In this document: one piece after another, positions 48,296-52,425 of the stretch
Layout of the letters: each line of letters begins with the position of its first letter
How positions within the stretch are numbered: the stretch's first letter is position 1
Assembly (NCBI GenBank): GCA_938001865.1
Contig: CALLAW010000036.1
Coordinates: 1-64,000 of the forward strand
Direction of reading: 5' to 3'
Source of the DNA: an uncultured Saprospiraceae bacterium
GTDB taxonomy: Bacteria > Bacteroidota > Bacteroidia > Chitinophagales > Saprospiraceae
DNA: 64,000 nt
The notes under the pieces: model-generated
What the model was told of the DNA's origin: nothing
What the model saw: the letters and a program-made list of their open reading frames with translations, nothing else
The model's database searches: none
Made by a program: the position numbers and the translations under genes

Positions 48296-48330
48296 TTTGT
48301 TGTGTTTTGCACCCAAAGCATGTACATTTG
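48296..48330 (+). promoter_or_regulatory. predicted promoter of the aromatic amino acid operon
   Basis: TTTG (48296-48299) and a following TTG (48300-48302) precede TACATTTG (48323-48330) with 23 or 20 bp spacing, both within the Bacteroidota TTG-N17-23-TAnnTTTG range. The start site expected a few bases later would put the leader peptide ATG (48337) at or near the 5' end of the mRNA. Confidence 0.55.
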
Positions 48331-48336
48331 ACTATT

Positions 48337-48393
48337 ATGAATAATTATACAAGCACAGTGAGCTATCTCTATTTCTTCTATTACGAAGGATAA
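48337..48393 (+). CDS. Tyr/Phe-rich leader peptide of an attenuator
   Basis: An 18-codon reading frame encodes MNNYTSTVSYLYFFYYEG and stops with TAA. Seven of 18 residues are aromatic (Tyr at 4, 10, 12, 15, 16; Phe at 13, 14), and six of them fall in codons 10-16. It lies between a predicted promoter and a strong terminator, directly ahead of pheA. Its codons would sense charged tRNA-Tyr and tRNA-Phe through ribosome stalling. The composition, position and the structures downstream together make this more than chance. Confidence 0.8.
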   Translation: MNNYTSTVSYLYFFYYEG

Positions 48394-48460
48394 AGAACTC
48401 TATGCTTGTAATGTACTTGAGAAGAAATAGAGTTTGATATATCAAGCTCTATTTTTTTTT
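48367..48460 (+). promoter_or_regulatory. transcription attenuator with alternative antiterminator pairings
   Basis: The 5' arm of the terminator can pair elsewhere. Segment A (48367-48379, CTCTATTTCTTCT, inside the leader codons) is the exact complement of 48420-48432. Segment D (48396-48403, AACTCTAT, 3 bp after the leader stop) is the exact complement of 48427-48434. Both partners overlap the terminator arm 48425-48437. A ribosome stalled on Tyr/Phe codons leaves D free and blocks the terminator; one that reaches the stop codon covers D and lets it form. The mechanism is inferred. Confidence 0.75.
48425..48460 (+). terminator. intrinsic terminator of the aromatic leader
   Basis: 13-bp stem (48425-48437 with 48442-48454; one G-U pair), 4-base loop TATA, and a run of nine T at 48452-48460. 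It ends 14 bp before the pheA start, so it acts before the structural genes. Confidence 0.85.
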
Positions 48461-48474
48461 ATGCTAAAGTGTAA

Positions 48475-49347
48475 ATGCAAATGACACATCCAAAGGTCTA
48501 TATCCAAGGTCATGAAGGCTCATTCCATGACGCAGTTGCTCGGAGATACTTCGGTGATAAGATCCAAGTGATCCCTTGTGATACATTTGACGAACTGGGA
48601 CGTAATCTGAGTCAAGGGAGTGACCAAGACTCTGCGGTTATGGCAATAGAGAACTCTATCGCGGGATCACTACTGGCTAACTATAAGCTCCTCAGAGAGC
48701 ACCGACTGACCATCAATGGCGAAGTATACAAGAGGATACAACTCAATCTCCTAGCGATGCCTGGGCAATCACTCCACCAAATAAAAGAAGTAAGATCTCA
48801 CCATATGGCTCTCAAGCAATGCAGTCAATACTTGCATGAGCACGACCACATCAAGCTAGTAGAGACATCAGATACAGCATTGGCTGCTAAGCACATAGCG
48901 GAGAGTAATGAAACTGGGGTCGCCTGTATCGCAAGTATACAAGCAGCAAATCTTTACAATCTGGAAGTCCTCGCAGACAGGATCGAAGACATCAACCTCA
49001 ATTATACTCGATTCTTCATCCTCAATAAATCTATACAAGATACAGGTGCTTGCGATAAAGCTACCATCTGGATACGTATCAGCCACCAGCCAGGTAGTCT
49101 GGTGGCAGTATTGAGCACCTTTGCAGACTTGCAGATCAATGTCAGTAATCTGCAATCGTTCCCAGTACACGGTCAGTTCAATGCCTATTACTTCCATATA
49201 GACCTAGAATTTGAGTCATTAGATCATTACAATGAAGCGATGGTAAGACTCCAAGGACTCACCAGCGGACTCCACCAACTCGGACTCTATCCTCGGGCAG
49301 ACGTCTCAGCAATCTTGCGAAATCAATTAGTGAATTATATGCTATGA
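48475..49347 (+). CDS. pheA: prephenate dehydratase PheA
   Basis: 290 residues, no chorismate mutase domain. The catalytic domain begins VYIQGHEGSFHDAVARRYFG and contains the TRF motif (NYTRFFIL) whose Thr is essential in the family. The C-terminal ACT domain (ISHQPGSLVAVLSTFADLQINVSNLQSFP) normally binds Phe for feedback inhibition. The usual ESRP of this domain reads QSFP, a variation I believe is common in Bacteroidota. It turns prephenate into phenylpyruvate. It is the first structural gene behind the attenuator and overlaps the aminotransferase by 4 bp. Confidence 0.93.
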   Translation: MQMTHPKVYIQGHEGSFHDAVARRYFGDKIQVIPCDTFDELGRNLSQGSDQDSAVMAIENSIAGSLLANYKLLREHRLTINGEVYKRIQLNLLAMPGQSLHQIKEVRSHHMALKQCSQYLHEHDHIKLVETSDTALAAKHIAESNETGVACIASIQAANLYNLEVLADRIEDINLNYTRFFILNKSIQDTGACDKATIWIRISHQPGSLVAVLSTFADLQINVSNLQSFPVHGQFNAYYFHIDLEFESLDHYNEAMVRLQGLTSGLHQLGLYPRADVSAILRNQLVNYML

Positions 49348-50495
49348 TAAGAAGTAGTCAAAGAGTCGCAGAGATCAAGCCATACTATTTTGCAACAAAG
49401 CTTAAAGCAATCGCTGCCTTGAATGCAGATGGTGCTGACATTATCAATCTTGGTATAGGGAGTCCTGACTTATCTCCACCTGATGAAGCCCTGGAGACAC
49501 TTACACAATCACTCACGGTAAATGCTGTACACCAATACCAGTCATACTATGGACTACCACAGCTCAGAGAAGCTATTAGAGACTTCTACCTGCGATACTA
49601 TACTACTCAGGTAAATGGCATCGATCACATACTCCCACTCATCGGGTCTAAGGAAGGCATCATGCATATCAGTATGGCATATCTCGACCCAGGTGACCAA
49701 GTACTGATCCCCAACCCTGGATATCCATCGTATGCAGCCTGTACTCAACTTGCAGGTGGTCAACCGATCTCTTACAATCTGAGTGCAGCCAATGGTTGGT
49801 CTCCAGACATCTCATCCCTCGAGACTCTCGATCTGACAAGAGTCAAACTGATGTGGATTAACTCTCCTCATATGCCTACAGGATCAATCATCCCTACAGA
49901 GACATTAGAAGCATTAATTGCATTTGCTCACAAGCACTCTATCCTACTCTGCCATGATAATCCCTATGCATTTATCTTGAATGATCAACCGACTAGCCTA
50001 CTCTCCTTGCCTCTAGCCGATCAGTGTGTCATAGAACTCTTCTCGATGAGTAAAGCATTCAATATGGCCGGTTGGAGAGTCGGAGCTGTGATCAGTACGC
50101 CTAAGCTTCTCGACCCTATCATACGCTTCAAGAGCAATATGGACTCGGGGATGTTCAAGGCAGTACAGCTGGCAGCTGTGGCAGCTCTCAAGTGTGAGCC
50201 TACATGGTTTGACTCACTCAATGCCACTTACCAGAGCCGAAAAGAAATAGCATACAATATCTTGGATAGTATCAACTGTGAGTATACCAAGGATCAATCT
50301 GGCATGTTTGTCTGGGCTAAGCATCCACAGCTGACAGGACGTCAACTCTCTGATCAGATTCTTGCTGAGAGTCGAGTCTTCATCACGCCTGGATTTATCT
50401 TTGGTGATCAAGGCAGTGACTATGTCAGACTCTCACTGTGCAGCCCTATCAATCGCTTAGAAGAAGCTCACCAACGTATCATCGAATCACTATGA
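49344..50495 (+). CDS. class I/II aminotransferase (aromatic branch)
   Basis: 383 residues, fold type I. The PLP lysine lies in FSMSKAFNMAGWRVG. The cofactor-binding residues appear in MWINSPHMPTGS (where NxP is usual) and CHDNPYAF. By its place between pheA and tyrA it most likely transaminates phenylpyruvate and 4-hydroxyphenylpyruvate to Phe and Tyr. The sequence alone would allow other substrates. It is joined to both neighbours by ATGA overlaps. Confidence 0.85.
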   Translation: MIRSSQRVAEIKPYYFATKLKAIAALNADGADIINLGIGSPDLSPPDEALETLTQSLTVNAVHQYQSYYGLPQLREAIRDFYLRYYTTQVNGIDHILPLIGSKEGIMHISMAYLDPGDQVLIPNPGYPSYAACTQLAGGQPISYNLSAANGWSPDISSLETLDLTRVKLMWINSPHMPTGSIIPTETLEALIAFAHKHSILLCHDNPYAFILNDQPTSLLSLPLADQCVIELFSMSKAFNMAGWRVGAVISTPKLLDPIIRFKSNMDSGMFKAVQLAAVAALKCEPTWFDSLNATYQSRKEIAYNILDSINCEYTKDQSGMFVWAKHPQLTGRQLSDQILAESRVFITPGFIFGDQGSDYVRLSLCSPINRLEEAHQRIIESL

Positions 50496-51349
50496 CTAGA
50501 GTAACAATTATCGGACTCGGACTCATCGGAGGATCTCTAGCACTTGATCTCAAGAGTCAACTCAATATCTCTGTAACTGGAGTGGATAATAATCCTAGCA
50601 ACCTCCAACTCGCATCAGAGCTCAATCTAGTAGACAAGGTCCAATCACTCGATGACAGTCTGGTCAACGCAGATATCGTCATCATCGCTATCCCTGTAGA
50701 TAGCATCGAAGATCTCCTGCCACAGATCCTTGACAAAGTCAATGAGACGACTGTAGTGCTCGATGTAGGTAGCACCAAGACTGACATCTGCAAGGCCGTC
50801 AGATCGCATCCCAATCGAAGGCAGTATGTCGCTGCTCACCCTCTAGCTGGTACAGAATACAGTGGACCTCAAGCAGCAATTACAGGACTCTTCAGAGGAA
50901 AGAAAAATATCATCTGCGATAAAGAACTCTCCGACCCAGAGGCAGTAACCTTGACTACCAAACTCTTCAATAGCATAGGAATGCAGACATACTATCTCTC
51001 GAGTGAGTCTCATGATAAGCATCTGGCATATGTCTCGCATCTCTCACATATCACCTCATTTACCCTGAGTCTGACAGTCCTAGACATAGAGAAAGATGAC
51101 GAACAGATTCTCAATCTAGCCAGTACAGGATTTGACTCTACAGTAAGATTGGCAAAGAGTAATCCTAAAACATGGACACCAATCCTCGTGAAAAACAATG
51201 AACACCTCAGCTTAGCTATAGGTCAATATATCGAACATTTACAAGAGTTCAAACGAGCTCTCGAACAAGAAGATAGAGCACATACTGAGGCTCTAATGCT
51301 CAAGGCAAATACAATCAAACACCTCCTCAATAAATCAGAAAAATTATGA
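50492..51349 (+). CDS. tyrA: prephenate dehydrogenase TyrA
   Basis: 285 residues from ATG 50492, which overlaps the aminotransferase stop as ATGA; an ATG at 50438 lies inside the upstream gene. The Rossmann motif is IIGLGLIGGSLA, followed by VLDVGSTKTDI, and HPLAGTEYSGP carries the catalytic His. It oxidises prephenate to 4-hydroxyphenylpyruvate. No ACT or chorismate mutase domain is present. Confidence 0.93.
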   Translation: MTRVTIIGLGLIGGSLALDLKSQLNISVTGVDNNPSNLQLASELNLVDKVQSLDDSLVNADIVIIAIPVDSIEDLLPQILDKVNETTVVLDVGSTKTDICKAVRSHPNRRQYVAAHPLAGTEYSGPQAAITGLFRGKKNIICDKELSDPEAVTLTTKLFNSIGMQTYYLSSESHDKHLAYVSHLSHITSFTLSLTVLDIEKDDEQILNLASTGFDSTVRLAKSNPKTWTPILVKNNEHLSLAIGQYIEHLQEFKRALEQEDRAHTEALMLKANTIKHLLNKSEKL

Positions 51350-52425
51350 GTGCTAAAAAGGAAAAAACATGGTTAACTCGGACCAAGAGACCAATCGTCA
51401 TCGCTGGCCCATGTAGTGCCGAGAGTGAAAATCAAGTCATGGAAACAGCCAAACGGCTAAAAACGACTGGTAAGGTAGACATCTATCGAGCTGGGATATG
51501 GAAGCCAAGGACTCGGCCAAACTCATTTGAAGGAGTAGGTGTGGTAGGTCTTCCGTGGGTCAAAAGAGTAAAAGAGGAAGTGGGATTCCCCGTCACAGTA
51601 GAGGTGGCTAAGGCATCACATGTAGAGCAGGCACTGAGTTTTGGGATCGATATCCTCTGGATAGGTGCCCGTACGACTGTCAATCCATTCGCTGTACAAG
51701 AGATTGCCGATGCACTCAGAGGTGTTGATATCCCTGTACTCGTGAAGAATCCGATCAATCCTGATGTAGCACTGTGGATCGGAGGGATCGAGAGACTAGA
51801 GAAGGCAGGAATCAAGGAGGTAGGAGCAATCCATCGAGGATTTTCTAACCATGGTGAGAAATACTATCGCAACAGACCTCAATGGCACATAGCATTAGAA
51901 TTCAAAAACAAACGTCCTGATATCCCACTCATCAATGACCCAAGTCACATCTGTGGACGTAGAGATATCCTCCAAGATGTAGGACAGAAAGCAATGGACT
52001 TGGACTTCGATGGACTCATGATAGAGTCTCATATCGATCCAGACAATGCATGGAGTGATGCCAAGCAACAGATTACTCCAGAGACACTCGGACAGATGAT
52101 AACGGAGATGGCACTGAGGCAAGACTTCGAAGATGTCCTCCCTATGCAAGGCGAACTTGATTATCTGCGATCAGAGATCAACCATCTCGACGACGAACTG
52201 ATCAATATCCTTGGCAATAGGATGGCAGTTGCTCGTAAGATTGGAAGTTACAAGAAGGACAATAACATGACTATCTACCAACCAAAACGATGGAAAAATA
52301 TCATGGACAAAGGATCAAAACTTGCTGAAACCAATCAGCTAAGTGATGACTTCATCAAGGCATTATTTGAGGCGATACACATCGAAAGTATCAACCAACA
52401 AGAAAAAATATTCAAAAACAAATAA
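51346..52425 (+). CDS. bifunctional DAHP synthase / chorismate mutase (type II)
   Basis: 359 residues. Residues 1-265 are a DAHP synthase of the AroF/KDO8P-like group: IVIAGPCSAESE, the metal Cys/His region and NDPSHICGRRD. Residues 270-355 are an AroQ chorismate mutase: YLRSEINHLDDELINILGNRMAVARKIGSYKK. It catalyses the first step of the shikimate pathway and the branch step from chorismate to prephenate; the mutase domain often mediates feedback control. It is the last gene of the operon. Confidence 0.93.
   Translation: MSAKKEKTWLTRTKRPIVIAGPCSAESENQVMETAKRLKTTGKVDIYRAGIWKPRTRPNSFEGVGVVGLPWVKRVKEEVGFPVTVEVAKASHVEQALSFGIDILWIGARTTVNPFAVQEIADALRGVDIPVLVKNPINPDVALWIGGIERLEKAGIKEVGAIHRGFSNHGEKYYRNRPQWHIALEFKNKRPDIPLINDPSHICGRRDILQDVGQKAMDLDFDGLMIESHIDPDNAWSDAKQQITPETLGQMITEMALRQDFEDVLPMQGELDYLRSEINHLDDELINILGNRMAVARKIGSYKKDNNMTIYQPKRWKNIMDKGSKLAETNQLSDDFIKALFEAIHIESINQQEKIFKNK

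Follow-up and report, generated by a model that had tools for sequence, protein, structure and literature searches.

A candidate leader-peptide attenuator for Phe and Tyr upstream of pheA in Bacteroidia, with probable tandem forms in relatives

In the 64,000-nt stretch of Saprospiraceae DNA analysed here (the window), positions 48323-48460 look like a ribosome-mediated (leader-peptide) attenuator upstream of pheA, and we consider it highly probable that the element is a transcription attenuator responding jointly to how far tRNA-Phe and tRNA-Tyr are charged. The analysis shows its anatomy, conservation, covariation and geometry; ribosome stalling, the site where transcription begins, termination itself and control in living cells we infer. 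In the proposed mechanism, transcription would begin about 2 nt upstream of the leader ATG; under a shortage of Phe or Tyr, the ribosome would pause at one of six Tyr/Phe codons in 48364-48384 and expose 48395-48403, which would pair with 48427-48435 in the 5′ arm of the terminator and let polymerase continue into pheA. With both amino acids plentiful, a ribosome at Gly-18 or the stop codon would cover 48395-48403, the terminator at 48420-48460 would form, and transcription would end. Because the Phe and Tyr codons share one sensing zone, OR logic is expected, whereby a shortage of either amino acid would relieve termination, and such logic would fit an operon that makes both.

Leader frame, terminator and operon in the window

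The genome that carries this Phe/Tyr operon comprises 3.58 Mb in 108 contigs. An operon coupling DAHP synthase and chorismate mutase with the enzymes of both branches had been predicted from the sequence, and Pfam matches to all four genes bear this out, in the order pheA, aminotransferase, tyrA and DAHP synthase/chorismate mutase. On the opposite side of the pheA leader region lies a minus-strand gene for a TonB-dependent receptor.

48475-49347, plus strand: pheA, prephenate dehydratase (PDT, PF00800) with an ACT domain (PF01842, slightly below cut-off)
49344-50495, plus strand: aminotransferase class I/II (Aminotran_1_2, PF00155)
50492-51349, plus strand: tyrA, prephenate dehydrogenase (PDH_N/PDH_C, PF02153 and PF20463)
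51346-52425, plus strand: fusion of DAHP synthase with a type II chorismate mutase (DAHP_synth_1, PF00793; CM_2, PF01817)

Three features of the leader region, two read from the sequence (the terminator also from its fold) and one delimited by a ribosome-mask simulation, precede pheA.

48337-48393, plus strand: leader peptide frame MNNYTSTVSYLYFFYYEG*, 18 codons with five Tyr and two Phe (ATG at 48337, TAA at 48391-48393)
48364-48384, plus strand: predicted sensing codons Tyr-Leu-Tyr-Phe-Phe-Tyr-Tyr
48420-48460, plus strand: intrinsic terminator, its 5′ arm termed region 3 and its 3′ arm region 4

The 18-codon frame with five Tyr and two Phe can be read directly, as originally claimed. Tyr and Phe thus fill 7 of its 18 codons; six of the seven lie in 48364-48384, with Tyr-4 upstream. 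The leaders of three congeners contain 7-8 aromatic (F/Y/W) residues per 17-20 codons. The terminator had been called a perfect 13-bp stem, and its 13 pairs (48425-48437 with 48442-48454, closing a loop of four), its nine T residues at 48452-48460 and the 14 nt from there to the pheA ATG at 48475 are all present; as one of the pairs is G-U, "perfect" is slightly loose. Folding extends the stem by four pairs into the T run, giving -17.4 kcal/mol for 48421-48458. Thermodynamic folding of 48337-48460, proposed in the original prediction as a check, gave -37.5 kcal/mol, compared with -19.75 ± 3.23 for shuffled sequences (z = -5.5; none of 200 shuffles as low).

A predicted ribosome-dependent switch in the window

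The segment predicted to offer an alternative to the terminator lies just past the leader stop codon, and a further helix competes for part of it.

48395-48403, plus strand: region 2, the putative antiterminator 5′ strand GAACTCTAT, 9 bp with 48427-48435
48348-48355, plus strand: strand 1 of helix 1:2 in the minimum-free-energy fold, partner of 48403-48410 and competitor of region 2
48403-48410, plus strand: strand 2 of helix 1:2 in the same fold

The 8-bp match described earlier between a segment after the stop codon and the terminator 5′ arm is exact (48396-48403 with 48427-48434), and a G-U pair, 48395:48435, lengthens it to 9 bp; none of 200 shuffles equalled these 9 bp. When a ribosome was placed along the leader in silico, 10 antiterminator pairs were available for every A-site position from 48358 to 48379, eight at 48382 (the last Tyr), five at Glu, and none at Gly-18 or the stop codon. 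The simulation therefore agrees with the proposal that a ribosome at the stop would hide this second pairing segment. The accompanying proposal, that a stalled ribosome would free one of two segments, holds in the simulation for 48395-48403 at the Tyr/Phe codons 48364-48382; the other segment, 48367-48379, would itself be hidden by the stalled ribosome. The third helix, 48348-48355 with 48403-48410, was missing from the original prediction. It was matched by 4 of 100 shuffles in the window and reached P ≤ 0.05 in 49 of the 237 leader-terminator units surveyed below, so that helix 1:2 is weakly supported as a general feature.

The pairing inside the Tyr/Phe codons

48367-48379, plus strand: 13 nt inside the Tyr/Phe codons that complement 48420-48432, specific to the window (sequence and simulation)

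This complementarity is exact over 13 nt, as had been stated, and exceeds chance, being equalled in 18 of 20,000 codon-order shuffles. Its assignment to the switch did not survive comparison: the corresponding pairing in three congeners measures 5, 4 and 5 bp, and across all units there is a small excess, with 30/237 at P ≤ 0.05. We therefore rejected it as the conserved antiterminator of the family.

A different role specific to this genome deserves consideration. The pairing of 48367-48379 with 48420-48432 might serve as a second antiterminator, such that missing translation, with a nearly leaderless mRNA free of ribosomes, would also open the operon and a sensor of translation capacity would sit atop Phe/Tyr sensing. 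The rarity of so long a match among codon shuffles speaks for this possibility, as does the nascent-RNA fold, in which the 13-bp pairing is preferred without a ribosome (-22.9 kcal/mol) and also with a ribosome whose A site has not passed 48355. Since the pairing opposes the terminator in the ribosome-free nascent fold, an untranslated leader in this genome might read through, the opposite of classical superattenuation. Against the proposal stand the short pairings of the three congeners and the weak overall enrichment, the full-length fold, in which the terminator still wins over the in-codon pairing, and the position of the 13-nt segment, which would lie under a ribosome waiting in the sensing zone. 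On balance, we judge a second antiterminator of this kind unlikely, and favour a single attenuator that operates through region 2.

Conservation upstream of pheA

We gathered 208 pheA upstream regions (30 + 18 + 80 stretches and 80 named loci) and removed one duplicate, leaving 207. They came from 30 of 34 matching genomes, 98 further genomes of 206 matching, and the best 80 of 586 named loci, and were picked broadly by similarity to a PheA profile with some rows skipped, which makes them a non-random set. A unit was defined as a short F/Y/W-rich frame followed by a terminator, using a detector designed once the loci had been inspected a first time. Units were found in 183/207 upstream regions, 129 with one and 54 with two, for a total of 237; limiting the search to the last 420 nt still gave a unit in 181/207. 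Both Phe and Tyr occur in 236 of the 237 leaders, and in 235/237 both fall inside the sensing zone, where a stalled ribosome would leave the antiterminator free. Trp makes up 1.6-1.8% of leader residues, a share that offers no strong case for it as a third sensed residue.

The alignment of relatives proposed earlier, in search of aromatic codons and both pairings, thus recovers leader and terminator in 183/207 loci with the region 2 pairing kept, and this computational survey did not return the contrary picture of homologues devoid of leader and alternative pairing. No unit was detected in 24/207 loci, of which three have less than 230 nt of upstream sequence, nine show a Phe/Tyr-rich frame without a well-placed accepted terminator, and the remainder show no convincing frame. 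Two Alistipes loci (L080 and L086) carry a Phe/Tyr-rich leader and no accepted terminator, and perhaps use another output, such as translation or a weaker terminator.

To gauge breadth, we turned to an evenly drawn phylum sample comprising 148 genomes of 90% completeness or more, of which 128 had a PheA match. Units were present in 22 of 26 genomes of the same class, Bacteroidia, with a match (one of them, L299, weak), in 4/4 of the same order and in the one family member examined, versus 2/22 in other classes, where 22 of 95 genomes were examined. On the basis of 22/26 against 2/22, the predicted Phe/Tyr attenuator is widespread in Bacteroidia and rare in the part sampled outside the class. 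Two assemblies labelled "Legionellaceae" (L084) and "Verrucomicrobiota" (L045) carry PheA proteins that group within the Sphingobacteriaceae and Rikenellaceae groups, respectively, and their placements are probably binning errors rather than transfers.

Leader codons follow the operon product

The regions upstream of hisG, trpE and thrA were taken from 16 genomes of the same family. Leaders with a run of His precede hisG in 12/12 loci, with a terminator following in 10 (raw counts, the shuffle controls covering pheA); in the genome of the window, the hisG leader (L227) reads MLSNKLYHHHHLICLQARMR and has a terminator downstream. For trpE, where the 16 loci include that of the same genome (L245), leaders with WW or WWW occur in 13/16, and a terminator follows in 11, figures that are likewise raw counts and that depend on a lowered threshold (at least four W gave 0/16, two W gave 13/16). 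At thrA, a leader with a terminator was found in 0/16 loci, with 186-255 nt of upstream sequence covered. The codon content of these putative leaders is seen to track the operon product, as an attenuation mechanism demands.

These comparisons dispose of the idea of a hairpin that simply terminates or insulates, preceded by a frame that is Tyr/Phe-rich by chance. AT-rich DNA does favour TTT, TTC, TAT and TAC codons; nevertheless, the unit found in 181/207 pheA upstreams appeared in 0/621 dinucleotide shuffles, 0/207 reverse complements and 1/600 upstreams of other genes from the named loci, which refutes a chance frame statistically, and in the same clade hisG and trpE bear His and Trp runs instead, while thrA lacks leader and terminator in its 16 loci. 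We regard the chance reading as having a negligible probability and retain the leader-peptide attenuator.

Covariation and ribosome geometry

We next considered whether region 2 is kept as a pairing. Scored against the terminator arm of its own locus, region 2 reached 17.4, versus 13.1 (sd 0.16) when arms were swapped between loci, a comparison that ignores relatedness and base composition; strong region 2 helices formed with 78% of own arms versus 33% of swapped arms. At single loci the pairing reached P ≤ 0.05 in 157/237 units when region 2 was positioned from the last aromatic codon, an analysis that revisited data already examined once; single-locus signals were often weak, as in the congener L004 (P = 0.07). 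The earlier analysis, which positioned region 2 from the stop codon, was set aside: pairing was weaker (P ≤ 0.05 in 93/237) because region 2 falls inside the frame in some clades. Within the genus, the letters of region 2 vary among GAACTCTAT, TAGGCTC, AGACTC and GACTGG with the pairing retained, at shuffle P values of 0, 0.07, 0.045 and 0.045. The predicted 8/9-bp antiterminator is conserved as a pairing though its letters change.

The position of region 2 is likewise constrained. It starts 5-14 nt past the last aromatic codon in 200/237 units, and 10-14 nt past it in 141, and its distance to the stop codon spans -32 to +11 among the units listed. We then moved a simulated ribosome along each of the 237 leaders, its leading edge assumed to lie 14 nt beyond the first base of the A-site codon. 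At aromatic codons, at least four antiterminator pairs formed in 94-100% of units: 99% one codon before the last aromatic codon and 94% at that codon, falling to 30% at +3 and 23% at +4 codons. With shuffled spacers, the values at -1, 0, +3 and +4 were 71, 69, 67 and 65%, and the control curve falls slowly, from 75% at -8 through 69% at 0 and 65% at +4 to 42% at +8. Where the drop occurs depends partly on the footprint chosen; the clustering of region 2 distances is independent of it, and the 237-unit set lets the ribosome footprint be read from sequence alone. The layout of classic amino-acid attenuation, as first proposed for the window, is thereby upheld by 183/207 loci, a conserved antiterminator pairing and a simulated ribosome switch. 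In three loci of a Chitinophagaceae clade (L043, L049 and L053), the leader frame extends beyond the aromatic cluster and encloses region 2, which precedes the stop by 17-32 nt; here the antiterminator would be masked by a ribosome in the act of translating rather than by one that has reached the stop codon.

A riboswitch or T-box that binds a ligand or tRNA, or else an RNA-binding protein, would also act on a terminator and an antiterminator, yet we give a driver of this sort in place of the ribosome next to no credence, given that the codons are the best-kept feature, that the position of region 2 is tied to the last aromatic codon, and that Rfam covariance models (including T-box, Phe_leader and Bacteroid-trp) matched no family at cut-off in the window and nothing except two tRNAs in 16 related loci (6 pheA, 3 hisG and 7 trpE). 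The best sub-threshold matches in the window belong to unrelated families (E = 0.17-0.18).

Promoter box and a predicted short 5′ UTR

Ahead of the leader-peptide attenuator, a promoter had been predicted, and a box that fits the Bacteroidota consensus is found there.

48296-48299, plus strand: TTTG, a possible (weak) -33 element 23 nt upstream of the -7 box; we presume both this role and the spacing
48323-48330, plus strand: promoter box TACATTTG, read from the sequence, fitting TAnnTTTG

The box lies 6 nt from the leader ATG. In Flavobacterium psychrophilum the promoter box sits at -12 to -5 (PMC9723704), and this geometry would place the start of transcription at about 48335 and leave a 5′ UTR of approximately 2 nt. 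A TAnnTTTG box was present within 60 nt upstream of 135/183 single or first leaders, where about 8 would be expected. Predicted 5′ UTRs of at most 8 nt occurred in 59/135 boxed leaders versus 18/75 boxed control ORFs (Fisher p = 0.005), the controls being the boxed members of 777 ORFs taken from the first ATG of frames of at least 150 codons in the window and the named loci. Short UTRs are only moderately enriched among leaders and are no hallmark of them. The suggestion of a nearly leaderless leader mRNA in the window is accordingly plausible given its predicted UTR of about 2 nt, with the qualification that such starts are just moderately enriched. For comparison, leaderless mRNAs are reported to amount to 5.5% genome-wide in F. 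psychrophilum, and about 3.7% of 5′ UTRs in B. thetaiotaomicron to be shorter than 10 nt. Hardly any units have a Shine-Dalgarno-like string upstream of the leader (9/237).

Relation to known attenuators

In the enterobacterial pheL-pheA and trpL-trp systems, a leader rich in codons for the end product and alternative 2:3 and 3:4 hairpins control an intrinsic terminator before the first gene. The window shares with them the end-product-rich leader, the alternative hairpins and the terminator just upstream of the first gene. It differs in its mixed Phe and Tyr codons, in an operon that includes DAHP synthase, chorismate mutase and both branches, in its Bacteroidota promoter with little Shine-Dalgarno use (9/237) and a very short predicted 5′ UTR, and in matching no Rfam leader family at cut-off. 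A 2010 study of amino-acid operon attenuation by Lopatovskaya and co-workers, cited as a comparative study in PMC4833913, may include Bacteroidetes.

The pheA attenuator is of the classical kind, and flavobacterial pheA 5′ elements are already reported: the available text of PMC9723704 describes 5′ elements that in F. psychrophilum lie before pheA and hisG and are conserved across further Flavobacteriaceae, mentions elements without Rfam hits, and speaks of "strong clues" of leader-peptide attenuation upstream of amino-acid operons. These elements concern the same genes in the same phylum; in contrast to the present set, that portion of the paper gives no Phe/Tyr leader, pairings or distribution past Flavobacteriaceae. 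New relative to the same portion are the wider set, the covariation, the geometry and the tandem form. The Bacteroid-trp motif (RF01692) is presented in a table of PMC2864571 as a putative Bacteroidetes cis-regulatory RNA named for trp; it resembles our elements as a cis-regulatory RNA of that phylum and differs in that it had no match at cut-off in the 16 loci searched (6 pheA, 3 hisG and 7 trpE).

Units in 22 of the 26 sampled genomes point to leader-peptide attenuation of pheA as a common arrangement in Bacteroidia, a class for which searchable papers say little on pheA attenuation, in which Shine-Dalgarno sequences are little used, and whose leaders no Rfam model matches.

Probable tandem attenuators in relatives

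The window and its genus have the single-unit form. Two complete units in series were found in 54/207 loci (48/127 genome-derived and 6/80 named), including L018, L020, L023, L026, L036, L037 and L055, with carriers in Saprospiraceae, Chitinophaga and Hymenobacter. One of these, L017, is doubtful, as its assigned first terminator overlaps the second frame, and 53/54 are clean. The two ATGs lie a median of 155 nt apart, the second at a median of 27.5 nt past the first hairpin. The Chitinophaga loci L038 and L050 have two leaders and a single accepted terminator.

A promoter box precedes the first leader in 45/54 tandem loci. An own box for the second unit was sought and rejected, at 1/54 versus 1.7 expected. 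Because the box stands before the first leader and not the second, one transcript probably passes both units. Own pairings of antiterminator and terminator scored 17.2 versus 13.9 for cross pairings between the two units, with own better in 44/53 and two equal (p = 6e-7), a comparison made within loci and hence at shared base composition. Since each antiterminator fits its own terminator better, the units look insulated from each other. Specialised leaders, one for Phe and one for Tyr, were considered and discarded: first units average 4.59 F and 3.20 Y and second units 4.94 F and 3.67 Y, a near-equal F/Y mix in both.

A FastTree phylogeny of 128 PheA proteins, 33 of them tandem (two by lenient assignment), requires 10 changes of the tandem state, gains and losses being counted alike, and at least three of the changes are forced by well-supported branches. 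Tandem loci occupy a large Saprospiraceae clade, Chitinophaga and Hymenobacter, together with one locus nearer the window, L039. These observations make it likely that two complete same-signal Phe + Tyr attenuators, in series on one transcript, guard the Phe/Tyr operon in a large part of Saprospiraceae and also, apparently as independent cases, in Chitinophaga and Hymenobacter.

A search of the literature on tandem amino-acid leaders and on Bacteroidetes or Phe/Tyr leaders, mostly outside subscription journals, returned nothing closer than the systems above and those that follow. The tandem attenuators of Salmonella mgtCBR, called "a singular example" by the authors of PMC3641672, similarly place two leader frames and attenuators on one transcript; there the signals differ (ATP and proline), whereas the relatives studied here repeat one Phe/Tyr mix and the window has a single unit. 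Like the tandem relatives, some Gammaproteobacterial rimP-leaders have two terminators in series, with a potential antiterminator for one of them; the portion of PMC2965389 that describes them gives no amino-acid leader frames.

We infer for tandem loci a two-step multiplication of termination. If the tandem reading is true, the product of two termination probabilities would lower the off state and steepen the response, and a wider range would be gained without a TyrR/TrpR-type repressor. The tandem form thereby raises a testable question, namely what benefit two consecutive attenuators for the same signal confer, and cultured tandem carriers are on record in Chitinophaga costaii A37T2 and Hymenobacter mucosus DSM 28041.
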